Below are positions 20,896-31,635 of a stretch of DNA of 64,000 nt, in pieces; the first letter of the stretch is position 1; the number at the start of each line of letters is the position of its first letter. Origin of the DNA: Ignavibacteriae bacterium HGW-Ignavibacteriae-2 (GTDB lineage Bacteria > Bacteroidota > Ignavibacteria > Ignavibacteriales > Melioribacteraceae). The stretch covers positions 1 to 64,000 of the forward strand of contig PGYT01000006.1 of NCBI GenBank assembly GCA_002839805.1. Direction: 5' to 3'. Both the position numbers and the translations under genes were made by a program. The notes under the pieces were generated by a model that saw nothing but the letters and a program-made list of their open reading frames with translations, was not told where the DNA came from and searched no databases.

Positions 20896-20915
20896 AACGT
20901 TTGAAAAATTTCAAA
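20896..20915 (+). promoter_or_regulatory. Palindromic operator copy 1 (before the GbsR-type regulator)
   Basis: Core of two inverted 7-base halves TTTGAAA and TTTCAAA with a 2-base centre (20900-20915). The left half is extended to AACGTTTGAAA as in copy 2, while the right half decays after TTTCAAA. It lies between the promoter and the start codon at 20931, which suggests autoregulation. Confidence 0.65.
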
Positions 20916-20930
20916 TATAAAAAACAGAAT

Positions 20931-21416
20931 ATGGATAAAGCAGAAAAGTTAAAAGAAGATTTTATAATGAACTTTGGCTGGGCCTACAAAGCATTTGGTC
21001 TGAGCAAATTGATGGGCCACGTTGTGGCGCTGCTGCTTTTTTCACCCAAACCTCTTTCGCTCGATGAAATAACAGAATCCCTTAAAAGAAGCAAAGGTCC
21101 CGTAAGCCAAATAACCCGCAGACTTAGGGATAAAAATTTAATAAGAAGAGTTTGGCAACCGACTAGTCGAAAAGACTATTACGAAATTCAACCCGATATT
21201 TTTGAAAACGCTTTCAGAAATAATCTCGAAATGGTTAGAAATAACTACAAATTAGCGCAGAAATTTAGAACTCAAATTAAAGACCAAAATGTGCAGGAAG
21301 CTGAAATTCTGTCCGCCCGTTTGGAAGAAATGCAAAGTTTCTACGAATTGATGGACAAAAAGTACAGGGAATTTCTGGACGAATGGGATGACGAACGCGC
21401 TAAGTTACTAGGTTAA
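20931..21416 (+). CDS. GbsR/MarR-type winged-helix transcriptional regulator
   Basis: 161 residues. The DNA-binding winged helix covers about 25-95: LLFSPKPLSLDEITESLKRS, KGPVSQITRRLRDKNLIRRV and a wing with RKDYYEI. The C-terminal part is a long helical region (RNNLEMVRNNYKLAQKF onward) that should form the dimer. The pattern of starting with GWAYKAFGLSKLMGHVVALL fits the GbsR group. Start is ATG at 20931; the open frame goes back to TTG 20901 but that lies inside the operator. The same palindrome is found before this gene and before the downstream operon, so it very likely controls both. The ligand is unknown. Confidence 0.83.
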   Translation: MDKAEKLKEDFIMNFGWAYKAFGLSKLMGHVVALLLFSPKPLSLDEITESLKRSKGPVSQITRRLRDKNLIRRVWQPTSRKDYYEIQPDIFENAFRNNLEMVRNNYKLAQKFRTQIKDQNVQEAEILSARLEEMQSFYELMDKKYREFLDEWDDERAKLLG

Positions 21417-21453: not shown

Positions 21454-21477
21454 AACGTTTGAAAAATTTCAAACGTT
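21454..21477 (+). promoter_or_regulatory. Palindromic operator copy 2 (before the catabolic operon)
   Basis: Perfect inverted repeat with 11-base arms (AACGTTTGAAA and its complement) and a 2-base centre, 23 bases before the SDR start codon. It contains the entire core of copy 1, so both are read as sites for the regulator encoded between them. Confidence 0.75.
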
Positions 21478-21500
21478 GCAAAACAACAAAAGAGGACTAC

Positions 21501-22244
21501 ATGGAAAGACTTAAAAACAAAATCGCGGTAATTACAGGCGGATCGCAGGGAATTGGCAGAGCCACAGTTGAAAAATTTGTGAATGAAGGCTGCAAAGTGG
21601 CTATATGGGATATCGATGAAGTAAGTGGAGAAACATTATCCAATGATTTGAACGCCAAAGGATTCGATACCTTCTTTCAAAAAGTAAATGTCGCGGATAT
21701 GGATAACGTGCAAGCTGCGGTAAAGTCCACATTGGCAAAATACGGCACAATAGATATCCTTGTGAATAATGCGGGAATTACAAAAGACGCCACTCTTAAA
21801 AAAATGACGCCCGAACAATGGCAGAAAGTAATTGACGTAAACTTAACAGGCGTGTTCAATTGTACAAGTTCAATTTCAACTGTTATGCTTGAAAAAGGAA
21901 CTGGGCGAATATTAAACGCGTCATCGGTAGTTGGGCTTTATGGAAATTTCGGACAAACAAATTATGTGGCCACAAAAGCTGGTGTTATTGGGATGACTAA
22001 AGTTTGGGCCAGAGAACTCGGCAGAAAAGGAATTACCGTTAATGCCGTAGCTCCGGGATTTATTGCTACCGAAATGGTTAAAGCTATGCCCGAAAATGTT
22101 ATAAAAATGATGGAAGATAAAACTCCGGTTGGACGATTAGGTAAACCTGAAGATATCGCCAACGCCTATTTGTTTTTATCGAGCGACGAAGCATCATTTA
22201 TAAACGGTGCCGTATTAAGTGTAGATGGTGGAATTGTAATTTAA
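21501..22244 (+). CDS. FabG/PhaB-like 3-oxoacyl reductase (SDR family)
   Basis: 247 residues, classical SDR: TGGSQGIGR (about 12-20), NNAGIT (about 88-93), catalytic serine S141/S142 in NASSVVG, Y155 and K159 in YVATK, then VAPGFIATEM. It looks like a 3-oxoacyl-ACP or acetoacetyl-CoA reductase, and could act as a 3-hydroxyacyl(-CoA) dehydrogenase. Start ATG 21501 is preceded by AGAGGAC; the frame is open to TTG 21459 inside the operator and that start is rejected. First gene of the operon under operator 2; the next start is 10 bases on. In this setting I think it interconverts hydroxy and keto groups on the imported acid, not housekeeping fatty-acid synthesis, but that is inferred. Confidence 0.83.
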   Translation: MERLKNKIAVITGGSQGIGRATVEKFVNEGCKVAIWDIDEVSGETLSNDLNAKGFDTFFQKVNVADMDNVQAAVKSTLAKYGTIDILVNNAGITKDATLKKMTPEQWQKVIDVNLTGVFNCTSSISTVMLEKGTGRILNASSVVGLYGNFGQTNYVATKAGVIGMTKVWARELGRKGITVNAVAPGFIATEMVKAMPENVIKMMEDKTPVGRLGKPEDIANAYLFLSSDEASFINGAVLSVDGGIVI

Positions 22245-22254
22245 CAGGAAAATT

Positions 22255-23244
22255 ATGAGAAATGCGGTAATACACTCCAGCGGATTTTACGTCCCTGAAA
22301 AAATAATAAGCAATAAATATTTTGACGATTTACTCGGCGAAGAAGTAAGTCCATGGTTGGAGAAACATGTTCAAATATACGAAAGACGATGGTGCGCCGA
22401 TAACGAATCGACGGCGGATCTAGCGAAGGAAGCAATTAAAAACGCCATGCAAAACGGTGGGGTTAAACCCGAAGAAATCGATCTGCTTATTATAGCAACG
22501 GACACACCGGAGTTTATCTCTCCTTCAACATCCTCAAAAGTACAATTTGAGCTGGGACTTATAAACGCAGGCACATTCGATGTAAATACTGCTTGCGCGG
22601 GTTTTGTTACGGCGCTGGATATGGCGTCCAAATATATACGTGATGACGAACAATATAAGACTGTAGCCGTAGTGGGCGCGTACGCGATGAGTAAATATTT
22701 AAATATGTTAGATAAAAAAACGGTTAACCTATTTGCCGACGGCGCCGGAGCTTTTATACTTAAAGCCGAAGAAAACAGCGGCAGAGGTTTTCTGGCGAGC
22801 AGACTTATTACCAAAGGTCAATATTATGATTATATGGGAATATTTGCCGGAGGAACTTTTAAACCTATTTCTGCTGAATTGGTTGATACGGTTGAACCAA
22901 AACTTCAGATACGTAAAAAATTCCCCCCTGAATTAAATCCCGAAATATGGTCGGACATAGCGAAAAATTTATCTGATAGGACTAATATACCTTTGAACGA
23001 AGTTGATATGTACTTCCTTACGCAGATAAATATTAATAGCATTTTTGAAACTATGGAAAAACTAAACCAGCCGAAAGAGAAAGCTCAAACAAGTATGCAT
23101 TATTACGGTTACACCGGTTCGGCATGTATACCAATCGCTTTTTGCGATGCTTTAGAAAAAGGAAAAATTAAAAGGGGCGACAACATATTTTTCATTGGAT
23201 CCGGCGGCGGTTTAGCTTTTGCCGGAACCGCATTCAAATATTAA
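22255..23244 (+). CDS. KAS III-like protein lacking the catalytic His and Asn
   Basis: 329 residues with the two-half thiolase-like fold of FabH. The nucleophile is kept: C114 in NTACAGF. Against E. coli FabH the catalytic His of PHQAN aligns with T256 (LTQIN), and the Asn of HGNTSAAS aligns with Y286 (YGYTGSAC). The C-terminal GSGGGLAFAG loop is kept. A Cys without His/Asn cannot work as a normal decarboxylating ketosynthase; it may be an acyl-transfer, hydrolase-like or partner subunit of the second KAS III-like protein in this operon. It lies 10 bases after the SDR and 9 before the transporter gene. Family certain, role unknown. Confidence 0.8.
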   Translation: MRNAVIHSSGFYVPEKIISNKYFDDLLGEEVSPWLEKHVQIYERRWCADNESTADLAKEAIKNAMQNGGVKPEEIDLLIIATDTPEFISPSTSSKVQFELGLINAGTFDVNTACAGFVTALDMASKYIRDDEQYKTVAVVGAYAMSKYLNMLDKKTVNLFADGAGAFILKAEENSGRGFLASRLITKGQYYDYMGIFAGGTFKPISAELVDTVEPKLQIRKKFPPELNPEIWSDIAKNLSDRTNIPLNEVDMYFLTQININSIFETMEKLNQPKEKAQTSMHYYGYTGSACIPIAFCDALEKGKIKRGDNIFFIGSGGGLAFAGTAFKY

Positions 23245-23253
23245 TGGCAAACT

Positions 23254-24804
23254 ATGGCAACAACTGAACAAGTTATTGGAACCTGGATTTTAATAACAAT
23301 TTACTCATCCATAATAATTTATTTTGTGGTTAGAGGAGCATTAAAGATTAAAAACATTTCCGATTACGCGGTAGGGAACATAAATTTTTCACCCTCCGCA
23401 GTAGGACTTTCTCTGGCCGCTACTATGACAAGCGCAGCAACGTTTGTAATAAATCCCGGACTTATAGCCAATTTCGGTCTTAGCGCTTTTATAGCTTATG
23501 GATTAGTATTTCCTCTGGGAGCGGTTTTGTCCTTAATTCTGCTCACTAAAAGTTTTAGGAAATACGGACAAACTGTAAAAGCACTCTCGTTGGCTCAATG
23601 GATTGGGAACAGATATAAAAATGAGAGATACGCCTTTTTTATGGCTGTACTGTCTCTGCTCCTAATTACATTCATAGTTTTGATAATTGTGGCCTTGACT
23701 AAAGTGCTCTCAAAAGCGCTTAACTTGGACGAGTTATACATATTATTCGGAATTGTAATATTTGTTTTCGGATATATGATGTTCGGCGGCGCTAATTCCA
23801 TGGTATACACAAATACCGTTCAGGGAATTGTAATGCTTATCGTAGCGTTTATTCTGCTTGGTTCTGGATATGAATATTTTCGTGATGGCATTTCGGGATT
23901 TTTTAACGAATTGGCAGCAATAGCTCCAAGTTTAACTGACACTACTGTCCCTTCAAGCCCATTATTCAGAGATTATTTCGAGATAATTATTTGTCAGTTT
24001 ATTGTTGGTGTGGCTGTTGTATGTCAGCCGCATATAATTACAAAATCGCTGCTGCTTAAAAAAGAAAGCGATGTTAACAGGTATTTACTTGTTGGTGTAA
24101 TAGTTGAAATAATATTTTTCTTAGTTGTTTTCGCCGGATTTTACGCGAGGTTAACTTTCCCCGATTTATCAATTGAAGGAGTAGCATTAAAAAACGACGG
24201 AATTATTCCCGCTTATGTTATAAAAATATTCTCCGATGGAATTGTCTCCGTTTTGGTAGGATTGCTAGTAATACTGGGACTTATTTCAGCGGGTATGTCG
24301 ACTCTGGAAGGATTGATTCAATCATTATCTACTACAATAACTTCAGATATAATTAAACCGTTATTAAAAAACAGAATTACATCCGATAAAACTTTAATAA
24401 CCATTAATAAGATAACTATAGCGCTGTTAGCAGTTGTTTCAATAATTATTTCTTACGATCAATTGATAAACCCGAAATTATCAGTTGCAATTCTGGCGCA
24501 GAACGGTGTGTACGCTTATTTCTCAGCGGCGTTTATTCCTATATTGTTCGGAATATTTTTTAAAGATGTGGATATAAAAGCGCCGTTGTTCGCTTCAATT
24601 ACGGCATTGGTAGTTCATTTCGGAATATACTACGGACTTCCAGCGCTCGTGGAAACTTTCGGAATATCTTTCGGATACTTTACTAAATATTTGGTTGGCG
24701 GAATCAGAAATCCAGCCATTTCTTCAGCTACGGCAATTATCGTTTCCACTTTAGTCGGAACAACTATACACTTTTTTACTAAAAAAAATAGTTTAACAAA
24801 ATGA
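23254..24804 (+). CDS. Sodium:solute symporter (SSS family)
   Basis: 516 residues with about 13 hydrophobic helices covering most of the length. SSS features are visible: SDYAVG after helix 1, SLAATMTSAATFVINPG in helix 2 region (a known unwound, sodium- and substrate-binding helix in this fold), and LISAGMSTLEGLIQSLSTT in the middle of the second repeat. Inner-membrane, sodium-driven uptake of a small organic solute, probably a carboxylate because a CoA ligase follows. Its stop overlaps the ligase start by 4 bases (ATGA at 24801-24804), so the two are coupled. Substrate is not predictable. Confidence 0.88.
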   Translation: MATTEQVIGTWILITIYSSIIIYFVVRGALKIKNISDYAVGNINFSPSAVGLSLAATMTSAATFVINPGLIANFGLSAFIAYGLVFPLGAVLSLILLTKSFRKYGQTVKALSLAQWIGNRYKNERYAFFMAVLSLLLITFIVLIIVALTKVLSKALNLDELYILFGIVIFVFGYMMFGGANSMVYTNTVQGIVMLIVAFILLGSGYEYFRDGISGFFNELAAIAPSLTDTTVPSSPLFRDYFEIIICQFIVGVAVVCQPHIITKSLLLKKESDVNRYLLVGVIVEIIFFLVVFAGFYARLTFPDLSIEGVALKNDGIIPAYVIKIFSDGIVSVLVGLLVILGLISAGMSTLEGLIQSLSTTITSDIIKPLLKNRITSDKTLITINKITIALLAVVSIIISYDQLINPKLSVAILAQNGVYAYFSAAFIPILFGIFFKDVDIKAPLFASITALVVHFGIYYGLPALVETFGISFGYFTKYLVGGIRNPAISSATAIIVSTLVGTTIHFFTKKNSLTK

Positions 24805-26315
24805 ATCAATTTGACTGGATCGCCAAATGGGCGCTGTATAATGAGGAAGCAAAAGCTGTTAAAGAATTTGAAACAGGAAAAGAACTTACATATGGGCAGC
24901 TCAATAGAATAGCTAATCGTGTATCCTCGGTTTTCTTAAATGAATATAAACTGAAGAAAGGTGACAGGGTAGCAGTTCTCGCGGAAAATTGTTCAGAGTA
25001 TATTATTCTTTTTAGCGTTATGCAAAAAACCGGACTTGTTCTTGTGCCTTTAAATTTTAGACTTACATCTCCGGAATTAAATTATATTCTGGAAAACGCG
25101 GAAGCTTCACTGGTTATAACAGAAACTAAATTTCTTGAAAAAATTACAGCGACAGATGCTTACAACAGTGTAAAAAATAAATTGATCTTGAAAGATTTTG
25201 AAATTATTTGTGCGCGCGGTAATGATAACCACGCACCCGATTTTAAATCAGCCCGGCTAAATGAAAACGATCCGCTTTTTATTTTATATACATCCGGCAC
25301 AACCGCTTTTCCTAAAGGAGCAATCTACACTCATAAAATGTTATTCTGGAACAGTATTAACACTGAAATCCGTTTGGACATTACCTCGAGCGATATTTCT
25401 CTTGATGTAGCGCCTCCATTTCATACAGGTTTCTGGAATGTTCTCTTAACTCCGTTTATTCATCACGGGGCATATACAATACTGATGAAAAATTTTGACG
25501 CGGAAAATGTATTAAACCTAATTGAAAAAGAGAAACTGACTATATGGTGGGCGGTTCCTACTATGCTTAAGATGATATCCGAAACTTCGCTTTTCAAACA
25601 AACTGATATATCGAATCTAAGATATATGGTTGTCGGCGGCGAAGCTATGCCTATTCCACTTATCAAAAAATGGCATTCTAAAAATGTGCCTATTAGACAG
25701 GGATACGGACTTACAGAGGTTGGACCTAATATTACATCACTGCCGGAAAAAGACGCCATAACCAAACAAGGTTCTATCGGTACTCCTAATTTTTATGTTG
25801 AAACAAAAATTGTTGACGATAAAGGGAATGAAATTACTGGAAGCGGTGGAGGAGAACTATTATTAAAAGGACCTAATGTTACCCCGGGCTATTGGAAAAA
25901 CGATGAAGCTACTGAAAATACAATTGTTGACGGATGGTTTCATACGGGTGATGTAGTAAGCAGGGATGATGACGGTTATTTCTATGTTATAGACAGAATA
26001 AAAAACATGTATATCTCCGGCGGCGAAAATGTTTATCCAGCAGAAGTGGAACACCTGATACGTAAACTGCCCGGAATTAACGATTTGATTATTATCGGTG
26101 TCCCTGATGAAAAATGGGGGGAAGCAGGTAAAGCGTTTATTGTTAAAGAAAAAGATATACAAATAAACGAAAAAGATATTCTCGATTATTGCAGGGCAAA
26201 TCTGGCAAAATATAAAATTCCTAAATACGTTGAATTTATAGATGAATTACCGAAAAATGATGCCGGTAAAGTTGACAGAAAAAAACTTAAACAACAAGAT
26301 TCGGATATTAGCTGA
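24801..26315 (+). CDS. AMP-forming acyl-CoA ligase
   Basis: 504 residues, ANL superfamily. AMP-binding motif YTSGTTAFPKGA (about 166-177), YGLTEVGPN (A5), WFHTGDV (A7), and the C-terminal catalytic lysine region PKNDAGKVDRKKL. Activates a carboxylic acid to its CoA thioester through an acyl-AMP. Translationally coupled to the transporter upstream and overlapping the next gene by 1 base, so it most likely activates the imported substrate. Overall it looks like medium-chain fatty acid or aromatic acid ligases; chain preference cannot be told. Confidence 0.9.
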   Translation: MNQFDWIAKWALYNEEAKAVKEFETGKELTYGQLNRIANRVSSVFLNEYKLKKGDRVAVLAENCSEYIILFSVMQKTGLVLVPLNFRLTSPELNYILENAEASLVITETKFLEKITATDAYNSVKNKLILKDFEIICARGNDNHAPDFKSARLNENDPLFILYTSGTTAFPKGAIYTHKMLFWNSINTEIRLDITSSDISLDVAPPFHTGFWNVLLTPFIHHGAYTILMKNFDAENVLNLIEKEKLTIWWAVPTMLKMISETSLFKQTDISNLRYMVVGGEAMPIPLIKKWHSKNVPIRQGYGLTEVGPNITSLPEKDAITKQGSIGTPNFYVETKIVDDKGNEITGSGGGELLLKGPNVTPGYWKNDEATENTIVDGWFHTGDVVSRDDDGYFYVIDRIKNMYISGGENVYPAEVEHLIRKLPGINDLIIIGVPDEKWGEAGKAFIVKEKDIQINEKDILDYCRANLAKYKIPKYVEFIDELPKNDAGKVDRKKLKQQDSDIS

Positions 26316-27337
26316 TGGCTTCAAACGTGAATGTGGGTATAGTGGGTACAGGAATTTATCTTCCCGATAGAAAGATTACGGCGGATGAAATAGCTGCTCA
26401 AACGAAAGGCGTGTGGGCGGCTGAAGCTGTTAAAGAAAAATTGGGGATAATTGAAAAAACTCTGCCCGGAGATAAAGACGGTACTCAGGAAATGGGCGTA
26501 TATGCCGCTAAAACCGCTCTTGATAAAACAGGAGTTGATGCTAAGGAGATAGATTTAATTTTATGCGTTGGAGAGGAATGGAAAGAATATCCGTTAACTA
26601 CCTCAGGCATATATATACAGGAAAAAATCGGCGCACGAAATGCCTGGGCAATAGATGTTCAACAAAGATGCTGTACAACAATTTCTGCCATGAAAATGGC
26701 GAAAGATATGATGATAGCCGACGATGACATTAATACAGTTCTAATTTGCGGAGGTTACCGTAACAGCGATTTTGTAGATTATGCTGATCCAAACATGTCC
26801 ATGATGTTTAATTTAGCTGCGGGCGGCGGCGCATTGATTCTGAAGAAAAACTATAACAAAAATTTACTTTTAGGTTCGCATATAATCAGCGATGGTTCCA
26901 TGGCACGCGACGCCGGTGTGATTTTCGGTGGAACGGAAAATCCGATTACTTGCGAAAATGCAGGGAAAGCTTATAAATCGCTCACACTTATGAATCCTGA
27001 TCATATGAAAAACCGCCTGAATGAAGTATCGATGGACAATTGGATGAGATGTATAGATAAGGCATTTGAAAAAAGCGGCGTTGATAAAAAAGAGCTTGGA
27101 TATTTGGCAGTGCTGCATTTTAAACAGTCCATGTATCAACATATGCTCGGTTTACTCGGGCTTAACGGGGATCAATCGATTTATCTTAATAATATTGGTC
27201 ACGTTGGACAAATAGATCAGATAATTTCACTTGAACTTGGACTGCGGCAGGAAAAAATTAAAGATGGAACAATAATAGCAATGATAGCCGCCGGGATAGG
27301 TTACGCCTGGGCTGCTAACGTAATTAGATGGGGATAA
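26315..27337 (+). CDS. Second KAS III-like protein, catalytic Cys and His present
   Basis: 340 residues. The thiolase-like fold motifs include GIVGTGIYLPDRKI at the N-terminus and AAGIGYAWAANVIRWG at the C-terminus. The nucleophile aligns with C119, followed directly by C120 (QQRCCTT). H268 in VLHFKQ takes the place of the FabH His. The Asn loop is replaced by NNIGHVGQID (292-301), with Asn and an extra His. It overlaps the ligase by 1 base. It is clearly not housekeeping FabH, and is also unlike its partner at 22255. It might carry out acyl-CoA condensation or, in a catabolic setting, thiolytic or hydrolytic carbon-carbon cleavage; this is inference. Confidence 0.8.
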   Translation: MASNVNVGIVGTGIYLPDRKITADEIAAQTKGVWAAEAVKEKLGIIEKTLPGDKDGTQEMGVYAAKTALDKTGVDAKEIDLILCVGEEWKEYPLTTSGIYIQEKIGARNAWAIDVQQRCCTTISAMKMAKDMMIADDDINTVLICGGYRNSDFVDYADPNMSMMFNLAAGGGALILKKNYNKNLLLGSHIISDGSMARDAGVIFGGTENPITCENAGKAYKSLTLMNPDHMKNRLNEVSMDNWMRCIDKAFEKSGVDKKELGYLAVLHFKQSMYQHMLGLLGLNGDQSIYLNNIGHVGQIDQIISLELGLRQEKIKDGTIIAMIAAGIGYAWAANVIRWG

Positions 27338-27371: not shown

Positions 27372-27869
27372 ATGAAAAAATTATTATCGCTTTTATTAAT
27401 TCTTTTACTCGCTGTTAGTTTTGCGGCTTGCAGTGATGACGACGACAACACAACCGAACCGGAAGTAAAAGTCGATGCATGGATCGGAACTTGGCTCAGC
27501 ACCGGCACGGATGTAGCACCTCTTTTATCTACATATTTCAATTATGATAGTGTGAGAGTAGAAATGAAAGAAGATAATACGATAACTCTTAATACTCATA
27601 TTAAAAATGCATCCTGGTCGACACTTCCCGGTGTTTATTCTGTGACAAAATCTACGAGTGGTGATGTTCATACAATAAAAATTAATTATACAGCTTTTGA
27701 GCAGGAAGGAATTGTACAAATAATATCCGGTACACCAGATCAAATGAAGTTGGAAGTTATACAAACTGTTCCGAGTACAAGTTTTGTAGCTAGAACACCC
27801 GCAACCGGATTCGGTTCAGACGCCCAATTAGGCACATCAAATATTCAGATTTATAAAAAAATTAAATAA
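27372..27869 (+). CDS. Small outer-membrane lipoprotein of unknown function
   Basis: 165 residues. Lipoprotein signal with lipobox SFAAC (Cys20) followed by an acidic stretch SDDDD, a pattern that in Bacteroidota can mark surface-exposed lipoproteins. The rest is beta-rich (IGTWLSTGTD, DNTITLNTHIKN, VHTIKINYTAF) and suggests a small lipocalin-like barrel, but I do not recognise a family with confidence. It has a strong ribosome-binding site (AAAGGAGCACCAA) and a terminator directly after it. Probably helps bind the substrate of this locus. Confidence 0.72.
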   Translation: MKKLLSLLLILLLAVSFAACSDDDDNTTEPEVKVDAWIGTWLSTGTDVAPLLSTYFNYDSVRVEMKEDNTITLNTHIKNASWSTLPGVYSVTKSTSGDVHTIKINYTAFEQEGIVQIISGTPDQMKLEVIQTVPSTSFVARTPATGFGSDAQLGTSNIQIYKKIK

Positions 27870-27942: not shown

Positions 27943-29478
27943 ATGAAAGACTTTTTAAAAATCTGCCTCATTTCAATTTTTATATCTCTTCAAATTAATG
28001 CCCAGATGACCGATAATTTCGAAGAAGATAGGGTTAAAGAAGAGAAAAAGGAATTTAAATTTATCGGCTATTATTTTATGAGATCCGAAGTCTCAAACAT
28101 GTACCCGACAAATGAGTTTCTTAAAGGTCAGGTTGTAGGGCGTCTGTTCGGGGGTAACTCTACAAGAACCGGTCAGGATTCCAGATTCACAGAACAAAGA
28201 TTTATACCTATAATAGCATACACACCGAGGCTATTCGACGGCTGGGCCACAATGAGAATGTCGTTCGAACTGGACTGGACCTGGGGCGACGCTAATTACG
28301 GAGCCGGTGGAAACTTCGGCGGAGCTTTCGGCGCGGACTTTGTAAATATGCAGACACAGAATTTGTTTATAGAATTCAGACCGCAAAAAAATCTTTTTGT
28401 AAACGCTGGTTTAACCCGATTGTTCGATAATATAAGTGTGCCGGCTTATACCCCTACGGAGGATTTGGTAAACACCGGATACAGACTAGCAATTTGGGGT
28501 TCGGACGCTACCGGTATCGCCGGACATTATTTTCTGAAAGATCAAAGATTTAAGCTGGGAGCTTACCAGCTTTATGAAAATAATGTTAATCAGAGTGACG
28601 ACGTTGTTCTTTTTGAAGCCGATTACGAATATGATTTCGATATTAAAAATTCGGCGGGATTAACGCTTTATTACTTAAAAGACAGGGGCAACGGGGAAGG
28701 GGGAGTCTCTATTCTTGGTCAGGGTCTTAATTCGGGTTTAAGCAATTACAGCGGCGTATTTAATTTTAATTTTGGGAATAATCCTTATACTGCGGATATA
28801 GTATGGCTTGGTTCTCACTTTCACGGTGATCCGCTTTTAAGGCAAGGCCGTTTCGGTTACAGCGGTTTTGTTATAAGTAACTTCGGACAAGCGAAAACTA
28901 AACTTCAGTCTGTTGATATTTTCGGTATGGCGGCTAATCTTAGGCTGGCATATAAATACGGCGCCAATAGGAATGATTTTGTGGCATTCGACGGAATTTT
29001 TACAACCGGCGATGACAATAACATAAGCGACGGAAAATACAGCGGAGTGCTTACGGGAAATAACTGGACCGCGCCCGGAGCCGTGTTTTTTAGTCACGGA
29101 TTATATTTGTTGTTGCCCCACGGAAATGTAGTTAACCGTTTTGTAGCCGCTGTTATAGACATTCAAAATGTCGGGTACGGTCTTGCCGCAGGCTCTTTGA
29201 CGGGATCCTACGATATTGTTCCAAATAAGTTTAAAATAAAATCCGCTTTGGGTCTTGGTTATTCTCCTGTTACTCCTACAGGCGGCGGAAATCAATTAGG
29301 CGCTGAAATTAATCTTAATCTGCTTTACAAGTTAAGAGTCTACATGGATTTGGAACTACACGCCGCGTATATGAAACTTGGCGATTTCTTTGATTCACGT
29401 GACGTTAACGGAGGAATTACAGGCAGACCCGAAGATCCGTGGGTTTTATTCGCTTCACTTAAATGGATAATGTTCTAG
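27943..29478 (+). CDS. Outer-membrane beta-barrel protein
   Basis: 511 residues. Signal peptide 1-20 (LISIFISLQINAQ). The mature part consists of alternating amphipathic strands (TPRLFDGWATMRMSFELDW, FDIKNSAGLTLYYLKD, YKLRVYMDLELHAAYMKL) and ends in a C-terminal Phe (LKWIMF), the usual barrel-assembly signal. Rich in Gly, Asn and aromatics. It resembles porin-like or alginate-export-like barrels without a precise match. Followed by the lipoprotein hydrolase after 9 bases. Likely the outer-membrane passage for the substrate of this locus. Barrel nature is well supported; specificity is unknown. Confidence 0.78.
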   Translation: MKDFLKICLISIFISLQINAQMTDNFEEDRVKEEKKEFKFIGYYFMRSEVSNMYPTNEFLKGQVVGRLFGGNSTRTGQDSRFTEQRFIPIIAYTPRLFDGWATMRMSFELDWTWGDANYGAGGNFGGAFGADFVNMQTQNLFIEFRPQKNLFVNAGLTRLFDNISVPAYTPTEDLVNTGYRLAIWGSDATGIAGHYFLKDQRFKLGAYQLYENNVNQSDDVVLFEADYEYDFDIKNSAGLTLYYLKDRGNGEGGVSILGQGLNSGLSNYSGVFNFNFGNNPYTADIVWLGSHFHGDPLLRQGRFGYSGFVISNFGQAKTKLQSVDIFGMAANLRLAYKYGANRNDFVAFDGIFTTGDDNNISDGKYSGVLTGNNWTAPGAVFFSHGLYLLLPHGNVVNRFVAAVIDIQNVGYGLAAGSLTGSYDIVPNKFKIKSALGLGYSPVTPTGGGNQLGAEINLNLLYKLRVYMDLELHAAYMKLGDFFDSRDVNGGITGRPEDPWVLFASLKWIMF

Positions 29479-29487
29479 GAGGATGAA

Positions 29488-30438
29488 ATGAAAAAAATAA
29501 ATTATTTAATTTTAGCAGTGGTTGTTATGGCTGTCGCTGGTTGCTCCACCTCGGAATATTATACTCTTCCTGCAAAGGAATTCAGTGAAGTGGATTATAA
29601 ATTTCCGGTAAAATTTGAACAAGTAAAAAATATTAATATAGCGTATATTGATGAAGGCAAAGGTGAAAATGTATTGCTGTTGATACACGGACTCGGTACA
29701 AACGCTAAAAGCTGGCTGAAAAATATTCCCGCCTTATCCGAAAATTTCAGGGTTATTGCAGTGGATTTACCCGGGTATGGCAAATCTGATAAAAAAAATT
29801 ATAAATACTCGATGTCATTTTATGGCGATGTTCTTTCAGAATTTTTGACTAATTTGAAAATAAATAAAGCTACATTCGTCGGTCATTCTATGGGCGGTCA
29901 AATTTCTATGGTTACCGCTCTTAATCATCCCGACAAAGTAGATAAACTTGTTCTTATTTCGCCTGCTGGATTTGAGAGGTTTACTGAAGGTGAAGGCGAT
30001 TGGATGAAAGCCGCTTTTACAATTGAGTTGGTAAAAGAGACCAATACAAGAAACATAGACGTTAATTTGAGTAGTAACTTTTATGATACTCCAGAAGATG
30101 CTTCGTTTTTTGTTACGGATAGAATTCAAATAAAAGGCGCAAAAGATTTTGAAGATTATTGTTACGCTGTAACACGAAACGTTACAGGTATGATAGATGA
30201 ACCGGTTTGGTCAAGATTAACGGAAATTAAAAATAAAACATTAATACTGTTCGGTGAGAACGACGGATTGATACCTAATTCTTATCTGCACGGCGGATTT
30301 ACATGTGACATCGCAAAAATTGGTGAATCCCAAATACCGGATAATAAAAGTGTAATTATTCCAAAATGCGGGCACATGGCCCAATTTGAAAAAGCTGATA
30401 TTGTTAATAAAGAGATAATTGACTTTATAAATGAGTAA
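29488..30438 (+). CDS. Lipoprotein alpha/beta-hydrolase
   Basis: 316 residues. Lipobox VAGC with Cys19, so it is membrane anchored outside the cytoplasm. Alpha/beta-hydrolase fold with oxyanion motif LIHGLG, nucleophile elbow GHSMGG (S134), acid D259 (GENDG) and H296 (CGHMAQFE). Expected to cleave an ester, or possibly a carbon-carbon bond in a diketone as in MhpC-like enzymes. Ribosome-binding site AGGAGG is strong; the thiolase gene starts 9 bases later. Location outside the cytoplasm suggests it frees the acid that the symporter then imports. Confidence 0.87.
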   Translation: MKKINYLILAVVVMAVAGCSTSEYYTLPAKEFSEVDYKFPVKFEQVKNINIAYIDEGKGENVLLLIHGLGTNAKSWLKNIPALSENFRVIAVDLPGYGKSDKKNYKYSMSFYGDVLSEFLTNLKINKATFVGHSMGGQISMVTALNHPDKVDKLVLISPAGFERFTEGEGDWMKAAFTIELVKETNTRNIDVNLSSNFYDTPEDASFFVTDRIQIKGAKDFEDYCYAVTRNVTGMIDEPVWSRLTEIKNKTLILFGENDGLIPNSYLHGGFTCDIAKIGESQIPDNKSVIIPKCGHMAQFEKADIVNKEIIDFINE

Positions 30439-30447
30439 GGAGTATTT

Positions 30448-31635
30448 ATGGCTGAGTTAAAAGAAGTATATATAATAGATGCGGTGCGCACACCCATAGG
30501 ATCATTTATGGGGGCGTTAAGTTCGGTGCCGGCGCCTAAACTCGGCAGCATTGCTATAAAGGCACTTGTCGATAGAAATAATCTTAAACCCGATTCAGTT
30601 AGTGAAGTAATTATGGGTAACGTTATACAAGCGGGTGAAAAACAAGCGCCTGCTCGTCAAGCGGCTTTATATGCGGGTTTAGACCAAGCTACCGAATGTA
30701 TGACTGTTAACAAAGTTTGCGGTTCCGGATTAAAGACAGTTATGCTTGGCGCTCAGGCAATTATGACAGGCGATGCCGATGTCGTTATCGCCGGAGGAAT
30801 GGAGAACATGTCACAAATTCCTTTTTTAATTCATAACGCAAGAGCGGGATTTAAAATGGGCGATCAGAAAATTGCCGATGCGATGCTTGGCGACGGACTG
30901 ATTGACGCTTATGACAATGTACACATGGGCACTTTCGCCGAATTATGCGCCAGAGAAAACAACATTACGCGAGAAGACCAGGATAATTTTGCGGAAGAAA
31001 GTTACAGACGCGCATTAAAAGCTATCGCTGATAAAACATTCGATCCGGAAATTATTCCTGTTGAAATAGCCGGCAGAAAAGGTGAGGTAACACTTGTTGC
31101 TGAGGACGAAGAACCGGGTAAAGTTAATTTCGATAAAATGAAAACTTTAAAACCTGTATTCGAAAAAGATGGAACTGTAACCGCGGCTAACGCATCCAGT
31201 ATTAATGACGGTGCAGCAGCAGTGCTGCTTATGAGCAAAGAAAAAGCCGAGGAACTGGGACTTAAACCTATCGCAAAAATTGTAGCTCAGGCCGCCGCTT
31301 CAAAAGATCCCAAATGGTTTACAACTGCGCCTGTGGACGCGATAAACAAAGTGTTAAATAAAGCCGGTTTAACAAAAGATCAAATTGACCTTTTCGAAAT
31401 TAATGAGGCGTTCGCAGTGGTTTCGGTTACTGTTAATAGACACCTTGGTCTGGATCCGGCAAAAGTTAATATTCACGGTGGAGCGGTTGCCATTGGACAT
31501 CCTATCGGAGCAAGCGGCGCGCGAATACTTACGACTTTACTACACGCGATGAAAAGAAATGATGCCCGTTACGGACTGGCGTCATTATGCATAGGCGGCG
31601 GTGAAGCTGTTGCTCTTGTTGTTGAAAAAGTTTAA
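30448..31635 (+). CDS. Thiolase (acetyl-CoA C-acyltransferase)
   Basis: 395 residues, full thiolase with C91 (NKVCGSG), H351 (AIGHPIGASG) and C381 (LCIGGG). N-terminus IIDAVRTPIGSFMGAL is typical of acetoacetyl-CoA/3-ketoacyl-CoA thiolases. Cytoplasmic; cleaves 3-ketoacyl-CoA with CoA, or runs in the reverse direction. As last gene of the cluster it would give acetyl-CoA from the keto-acyl-CoA made by ligase and SDR. Chain-length preference is not clear; length and residues fit the short-chain type. Confidence 0.92.
   Translation: MAELKEVYIIDAVRTPIGSFMGALSSVPAPKLGSIAIKALVDRNNLKPDSVSEVIMGNVIQAGEKQAPARQAALYAGLDQATECMTVNKVCGSGLKTVMLGAQAIMTGDADVVIAGGMENMSQIPFLIHNARAGFKMGDQKIADAMLGDGLIDAYDNVHMGTFAELCARENNITREDQDNFAEESYRRALKAIADKTFDPEIIPVEIAGRKGEVTLVAEDEEPGKVNFDKMKTLKPVFEKDGTVTAANASSINDGAAAVLLMSKEKAEELGLKPIAKIVAQAAASKDPKWFTTAPVDAINKVLNKAGLTKDQIDLFEINEAFAVVSVTVNRHLGLDPAKVNIHGGAVAIGHPIGASGARILTTLLHAMKRNDARYGLASLCIGGGEAVALVVEKV

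Follow-up and report, generated by a model that had tools for sequence, protein, structure and literature searches.

A KAS III-like protein with Thr and Tyr at the FabH His and Asn positions, and its conserved operon in an Ignavibacteria genome and its relatives

The window analysed here is the whole stretch of 64,000 nucleotides at the start of contig PGYT01000006.1 of Ignavibacteriae bacterium HGW-Ignavibacteriae-2. It encodes a KAS III-like protein, called K3x below, that keeps the nucleophile Cys of FabH and has Thr and Tyr at the positions of the catalytic His and Asn. The same operon encodes a second KAS III-like protein, K3y. The locus raises the question of what a KAS III protein altered in this way may do, and whether it acts by itself or as a partner of K3y. 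K3x probably catalyzes a different, as yet undescribed reaction.

Catalytic positions of K3x

The gene is a single open reading frame (Table 1), and its opposite strand has many stops in the one frame of the reverse complement that was read. Both KAS III domains, ACP_syn_III and ACP_syn_III_C, exceed their Pfam cut-offs. The closest solved relatives are FabHs, with 1zow the best by sequence (170.9 bits) and 2ebd the best by fold search. In alignments to solved FabHs (the best three chains by phmmer and the best five by a 34-row profile), C114 in the motif NTACAGF falls on the FabH nucleophile, T256 in FLTQININ on the His of xHQxN, and Y286 in YGYTGSAC on the Asn of GNT. An earlier note on this DNA had read the Cys as kept, with Thr in place of His and Tyr in place of Asn; the alignments and the 83 family members described below bear this out.

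Table 1. The K3x operon and the K3x codons discussed, in window positions
Feature	Positions	Strand	Description	Evidence
Regulator	20901..21416	+	GbsR/MarR-like; opens the conserved operon; start codon uncertain, scanned from 20943	
SDR	21459..22244	+	FabG/acetoacetyl-CoA reductase type; WDID ends the second strand; probable start 21501	
K3x	22255..23244	+	KAS III-like protein, C114/T256/Y286; 329 aa; ATG at 22255, stop ends at 23244	ORF, Pfam, alignment
Asp83 codon	22501..22503	+	Extra acidic residue	Column alignment
Cys114 codon	22594..22596	+	Nucleophile position	
Thr256 codon	23020..23022	+	FabH His position	
Tyr286 codon	23110..23112	+	FabH Asn position	
Symporter	23254..24804	+	Sodium:solute symporter family protein	Profile matches
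Ligase	24801..26315	+	AMP-binding acyl-CoA ligase	Profile matches
K3y	26315..27337	+	Second KAS III-like protein, NF005308/PRK06840	450.3 bits, cut-off 315
Lipoprotein	27372..27869	+	Small, lipoprotein-like, no Pfam match; also precedes the porin in the operon of relatives	
Porin	27943..29478	+	Outer-membrane porin-like protein	Weak Alginate_exp match below Pfam cut-off
Hydrolase	29488..30438	+	Alpha/beta hydrolase with lipobox-like VAGC and GHSMG; putatively exported	
Thiolase	30448..31635	+	Canonical thiolase with VCGSG, NEAF, GHPIG and CIGGG	TIGR01930

Decarboxylating condensation requires the His/Asn pair, as established for FabH. Since K3x has lost this pair while keeping the Cys, classical decarboxylating condensation is unlikely; the earlier note had stated that it should be impossible. 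An ordinary condensing enzyme that tolerates the Thr and Tyr, for example an acetoacetyl-CoA or acetoacetyl-ACP synthase, is highly improbable. FabH profiles do score K3x at 228.7 and 200.6 bits, but both scores miss the curated NCBIfam cut-offs (249 for NF006829 and 292.1 for TIGR00747), the His and Asn are lost family-wide, and the host genome already encodes a Cys-His-Asn FabH elsewhere (G000:C130:25688-26641, 34% identity to K3x).

A first AlphaFold model, with K3x, an orthologue from a Bacteroidales genome and K3y as inputs, has a mean pLDDT of 62.5, and residues 281-291 are below 50, so that this loop is undefined; a second model from a two-row alignment reaches a pLDDT of 39.3. A Foldseek search with the first model confirmed the FabH fold, at an rmsd of 7.5-10.4 Å among the 50 matches listed.

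Conservation and distribution of the family

K3x is known from 95 places, which are 93 genomes, the metagenome-assembled genome (MAG) of a Bacteroidales bacterium and a plasmid. We read the residues in 83 of these, one per genome and the window included, with 12 genomes left out; the lowest identity to the window protein in this set is 41%. For comparison we used 21 FabHs, 20 from FabH-range matches in related genomes and the host's own.

The Cys-His-Asn triad is absent from K3x, which has C-T-Y in 82 of the 83 sequences and C-S-Y in one. Cys114 and Tyr286 are invariant, and Thr256 is replaced once, by Ser; all 21 FabHs have Cys, Asn and His at these positions. Asp83 is also present in 83 of 83, at a position that is Val in 19 FabHs and Ile in two. 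Tyr143, Asn228, Trp232, Met281 and Gly288 are each found in all 83 K3x proteins, where each of the 21 FabHs has Asp, Ala, Met, Ile and Thr, respectively. Ser89 (82 of 83) and Ser316 (80 of 83, with two gaps) both take the place of a Phe present in every FabH. Asn111, near the Cys in sequence, occurs in 82 of 83 and is Ser in 19 of 21 FabHs, and Asn259, also in 82 of 83, corresponds to an Asn in all 21 FabHs. Five residues after Tyr286, position 291 is Cys in 67 and Ala in 15 of the 83. Column 261 is Arg in every FabH and another residue in 82 of 83 K3x proteins. In our reading this is the Arg through which E. coli FabH contacts ACP, and its loss would suit CoA rather than ACP as the carrier.

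By the earlier note, a structural alignment placing another His and Asn in the active site would refute its reading. At the sequence level we found no conserved His column across the 83 proteins (His is the residue of half or more of them in three columns, with counts of 63, 51 and 42). Of the Asn residues, N259, shared with FabH, and N111, new in K3x, are both kept, and N111 is close to the Cys in the sequence, so that an Asn may still stand in the pocket. The Cys-Thr-Tyr pattern is far beyond chance. Because the Cys and a second polar set are so strictly kept, there is a strong case that K3x is an active family and not one in decay.

Among related genomes, 53 of 146, host included, encode K3x, with a lowest score of 363 bits and the next match at 188. 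Across the phylum of the window, which we take to be Bacteroidota from the affiliation of the Bacteroidales MAG, it is present in at least 56 of 395 sampled genomes (lowest 390 bits, next 251), a lower bound, since scoring was limited to five candidates in each genome. Two further genomes (G010 and G367) were excluded from a tally of 58 because their sole matches are in the FabH score range; the copy in G367 (L115) is C-H-N and was removed from the K3x set. The K3x-bearing genomes are spread over 17 families. The orthologue in the Bacteroidales MAG (L001) is 69% identical and is the sole relative from 27 pattern matches in named genomes. On plasmids, where 377 records match, residues were read in the best one only, the Chloroflexota plasmid CP069395 (L072). 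At 40.7% identity, this is the only copy from another phylum, and the next best plasmid match listed is at 33.6%. None of the 41 pattern matches on viral contigs encodes a relative.

In a tree with FabH, L115 and K3y, the 83 K3x proteins, Chloroflexota member included, form one clade (local support 0.93, from bipartitions); without that member, a clade of the other 82 is unsupported (0.013). We found no description of the family in the accessible portions of the open-access literature. Ketoacyl-ACP synthase III is the annotation of the Chloroflexota copy, and other copies probably carry it too, although the canonical triad is gone in all 83 proteins read. Given the family's own fixed active site, its tie to an operon for uptake and activation, and its presence in no fewer than 56 of the 395 sampled genomes, a catabolic step that is fairly widespread probably goes under the wrong name.

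The operon and hints at its substrate

The ten genes in Table 1 lie on one strand in the order regulator, SDR, K3x, symporter, ligase, K3y, lipoprotein, porin, hydrolase and thiolase, and from the SDR onward they are separated by short gaps or overlap. A scan gave 33 promoter-like sites compared with 34.6 in shuffles, and 14 terminator-like sites compared with 8.9; our reading of the operon does not draw on these counts.

K3x is part of a conserved operon with a regulator, an SDR, a transporter, a ligase, a porin or TonB receptor, a hydrolase and sometimes a thiolase. In relatives the order is similar to that in the window, mostly without K3y and with the thiolase elsewhere or upstream. For 59 loci that reach 4 kb or more to either side, we counted neighbors by tblastn, accepting any match of at least 60 bits within the sequence fetched: hydrolase in 59, ligase in 58, SDR in 57, regulator in 51, symporter in 50, porin in 45, lipoprotein in 19 and thiolase in 13. 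The two loci without an SDR match (L102 and L105), a point against the pathway proposed below, belong to one genus. MFS transporters take the place of the symporter in L107 and L121, and the L036 operon has a TonB-dependent receptor and no porin match. The only locus without the ligase is the Chloroflexota plasmid, where a CoA-transferase-family protein adjoins K3x; that locus also contains an SCPx-type thiolase, with a ChsH2-type OB-fold protein beside it. An ORF for a protein of about 480 amino acids lies near K3x in L119 (3904-5334, without Pfam match) and L112 (1942-3384, without NCBIfam match), and L128:17046-18437 resembles it.

In many loci, including the window, the SDR directly precedes K3x. 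By eye, its second strand ends in WD in the window, L106, L116, L119, L121 and L128 and in AD in L101 and L107, which suggests an NAD-type enzyme acting in oxidation. A lipobox-like motif is near the start of 34 of 61 hydrolases, so many of these are probably exported.

The earlier note had considered K3x as a possible non-catalytic partner of K3y, and the PqsBC heterodimer gives a model in which K3x would be non-catalytic or half-catalytic. The two proteins do share one operon in eight K3x genomes. However, although K3y (family NF005308) always lies within the K3x operon in those 8 of 78 genomes, the NF005308 search did not find it in the remaining 70, so K3y is not an obligate partner. (Presence rests on this search, as the tblastn count for K3y, 43, includes matches to K3x itself.) K3x also keeps the Cys and its full invariant residue set, and its best solved relatives are FabHs, which are homodimers. 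A heterodimer of the PqsBC kind is therefore very unlikely, and the partnership in its obligate form falls away. K3y has its own signature. In the seven copies read from the window's family, the Cys is present, a His stands at the FabH His position, and the motif GHVGQID or GHIGQID puts a second His at the FabH Asn position and an Asp five residues on; the copy in G362 has GHIGEQD with the first His missing. This spacing is like that of His296 and Asp301 in ChlB3 (available text of PMC9573744) and would place K3y nearer to a known acyltransferase than K3x is. K3y looks like an optional addition to the pathway and not like a component that completes K3x. Distant K3y relatives are found on Halobaculum plasmids, with branched-chain-type ABC transporter genes adjoining in the one region viewed.

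A few loci contain genes that may indicate the substrate. In L036, malate synthase A and an isocitrate-lyase-family protein are encoded between symporter and ligase (L036:11847-16096), and in L128 a short-chain fatty-acid transporter is two ORFs downstream of the ligase; each is a single locus. In G399 and G451, which belong to one genus, a class III PhaC lies directly upstream of regulator, SDR and K3x (L116:302-8487 and L140:448-7550). In G399 it scores 449.8 bits (cut-off 365.3), a weak PhaE match (60.5 bits, cut-off 155) has a homologue in G451, and two extra ORFs stand between regulator and SDR. Three K3x genomes of another genus have a PhaE-PhaC-SDR-thiolase cluster apart from K3x. Class III PhaC occurs in 7 of the 395 genomes, five of which have K3x (p 0.0008, ignoring kinship, the five genomes being from two genera), and in three of these five the PhaC genes are apart from K3x. 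Esterase_PHB occurs in 1 of 395 and lends the PHB link no support. With PhaC and this esterase so rare, a general PHB diet of K3x genomes is disfavored. Taken together, the glyoxylate-shunt genes, the fatty-acid transporter and PhaC point to a substrate of the 3-hydroxyacid kind that ends as acetyl-CoA, and this side evidence from single relatives suggests that the operon degrades a short 3-hydroxyacid-like substrate to acetyl-CoA.

K3x might be a KAS III-fold analogue of thiolase that breaks or forms the C-C bond in a 3-oxoacyl-CoA without decarboxylation. The Thr256 and Tyr286 hydroxyls would then form the enolate oxyanion hole, with Asp83 as acid/base. The SDR directly before K3x would suit this role, as would the two loci where K3x and the SDR are beside PhaC, the place where PhaA and PhaB are expected. 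The invariant Asp83 is 31 residues before the Cys, near the spacing of the catalytic pair in HMG-CoA synthase given below. However, 77 of 78 K3x genomes contain a TIGR01930 thiolase, and in the remaining one the operon that holds K3x includes a thiolase of the SCPx type (78 of 93 K3x genomes were searched, the omitted 15 being mostly fragmentary). K3x thus seems not to replace the thiolase step. The window thiolase is the sole TIGR01930 match (E <= 1e-20) in the 4.16-Mb host genome and is already in the same operon, and K3x has no Cys at its CxG-type loop (G315/S316). As a thiolase replacement K3x is weakened by these counts, and we consider the analogue doubtful. Thiolase also occurs in 55 of 66 K3x-negative relatives (66 of 93, mostly complete genomes), and the difference from 77 of 78 is a weak one (Fisher p 0.0013, ignoring kinship).

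Proposed reaction and comparison with known systems

We give roughly an even chance to the reading that K3x is a functional acyl-cysteine enzyme that depends on CoA, in a distinct, non-decarboxylating KAS III subfamily that serves in short-hydroxyacid catabolism. The earlier note had suggested that the Cys could still hold an acyl group, in an acyltransferase or a hydrolase; the strict C114, D83, T256 and Y286 favor activity of a different sort from condensation, acyl transfer or cleavage, and CoA dependence is consistent with a ligase in 58 of 59 loci and a CoA-transferase-family protein in the other. More tentatively, K3x may be the first member of a catabolic KAS III-fold class that uses Cys-Asp with Thr and Tyr hydroxyls, and neither His nor Asn, to thiolyse ester-linked or 3-oxo hydroxyacyl-CoA. 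The specific guess that it thiolyses the ester bond of an oligo-hydroxyacyl-CoA is possible, and somewhat less probable again.

We infer substrate, direction and residue roles from the invariant residues and the operon. The hydrolase would release a short hydroxyacid, for example a 3-hydroxyalkanoate or ester-linked oligomers, which the porin or TonB receptor and the transporter would import and the ligase would activate. K3x would act in the cytoplasm on the acyl-CoA from the neighboring ligase, the SDR would oxidize, and the thiolase would carry out the final thiolysis. Cys114 would accept the acyl group from the substrate and pass it to CoA. Tyr286 may help to activate Cys114, as it presumably stands where a His activates the Cys in CerJ and ChlB3. 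The oxyanion may be held by the Cys114 backbone NH and the kept GSGGG loop, with Asp83 and Tyr286 as putative acid/base and Thr256 as a hydrogen-bond donor. With ester thiolysis, one ATP-dependent activation would serve several monomers, and the separate thiolase would keep its own step.

If K3x performs non-decarboxylative acyl transfer or C-C cleavage without a His on a KAS III scaffold, it would be a new catalytic solution in a well-studied superfamily and would supply a missing gene for the degradation of 3-hydroxyacids or polymers. Ester-linked or 3-oxo thiolysis, if true, would give the hosts an unrecognized way to convert polyester or hydroxyacid oligomers into acetyl-CoA.

K3x shares with FabH the fold, the length, the Cys in TACxGF and the glycine loop. 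It differs in Thr for His, Tyr for Asn, Ser for Phe at 89 and 316, the added Asp83, the loss of Arg261 (82 of 83), and an operon for acid uptake and CoA activation.

OleA, of the olefin/beta-lactone pathway, uses a Cys, a Glu from the other subunit, a His and an Asn, and has OleB, OleC and OleD as neighbors. OleA chains match K3x over residues 41-155 only, and the OleA His and Asn are absent from K3x. The neighbors of K3x include a hydrolase, a ligase and an SDR, and no Ole-named model is among their best NCBIfam matches listed.

The thiolase set CxS/NEAF/GHP/CxG (Cys-Asn-His-Cys) is replaced in K3x by C114, a Tyr in GYTG and a Cys-less GSGGG.

The KSIII-like acyltransferases ChlB3 and CerJ have a Cys-His-Asp triad, in which His296 activates Cys113 (available text of PMC9573744). 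They share the KAS III fold with K3x, and we count it in favor of an acyl-cysteine K3x that these altered thiolase-fold enzymes perform acyl transfer and not condensation. On the other side, the Cys-His-Asp of these acyltransferases is missing in K3x, which has Tyr286 and not His, and Cys or Ala291 and not Asp; here their Cys-activating residue is equated with the FabH Asn position on the basis of that text, rather than by an alignment of our own. As the same text describes them, they serve in biosynthetic tailoring, and the K3x operon looks catabolic.

A further alternative is an aldol reaction on a 3-hydroxyacyl-CoA, as a retro-aldolase or an HMG-CoA-synthase-like enzyme with Tyr286 as base. 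The thiolase-fold aldolases Ltp2 and Sal use a catalytic Tyr instead of thiolase residues (available text of PMC12329534). They have this Tyr re-tooling within the thiolase superfamily in common with K3x, and their reaction is catabolic, on a CoA thioester; they differ in their steroid substrates, a DUF35 partner (no DUF35 was found among the ten window genes scanned) and the loop that holds the Tyr. Theirs is in YDHF or YDCY, which we take to be the NEAF-type loop, and Tyr286 is in what is presumably the GHP-type loop; at the equivalent of YDHF/YDCY K3x has TQIN.

HMG-CoA synthase has Cys114 and Glu82, 32 apart, and the PhlC residues Tyr298 and His347 of the Friedel-Crafts acylase are considered as stabilizers of the thiolate (both in the available text of PMC6392133). 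The acidic residue and Cys of K3x (Asp83 and Cys114) are at a near-equal spacing of 31, a likeness of spacing only and not of direct alignment, which would suit the aldol alternative as well. K3x differs from HMG-CoA synthase in having no conserved His and an Asp rather than a Glu, and the profiles of that family score 49.2, 29.9 and 24.5 bits, far below their cut-offs. The invariant nucleophile Cys speaks against an aldol enzyme, as does the lack of any aldehyde dehydrogenase in the scan of ten window genes, and we consider it unlikely.

The last comparison is with PHB and 3-hydroxybutyrate metabolism (PhaA-PhaB-PhaC/E). To our knowledge, no pathway of this kind includes a KAS III-like protein, and we found none in the accessible portions of the open-access literature. 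The K3x operon shares with these systems the SDR, the thiolase, CoA activation and the transporter, and in G399 and G451, of one genus, K3x itself has PhaC and a PhaE-like gene as neighbors.
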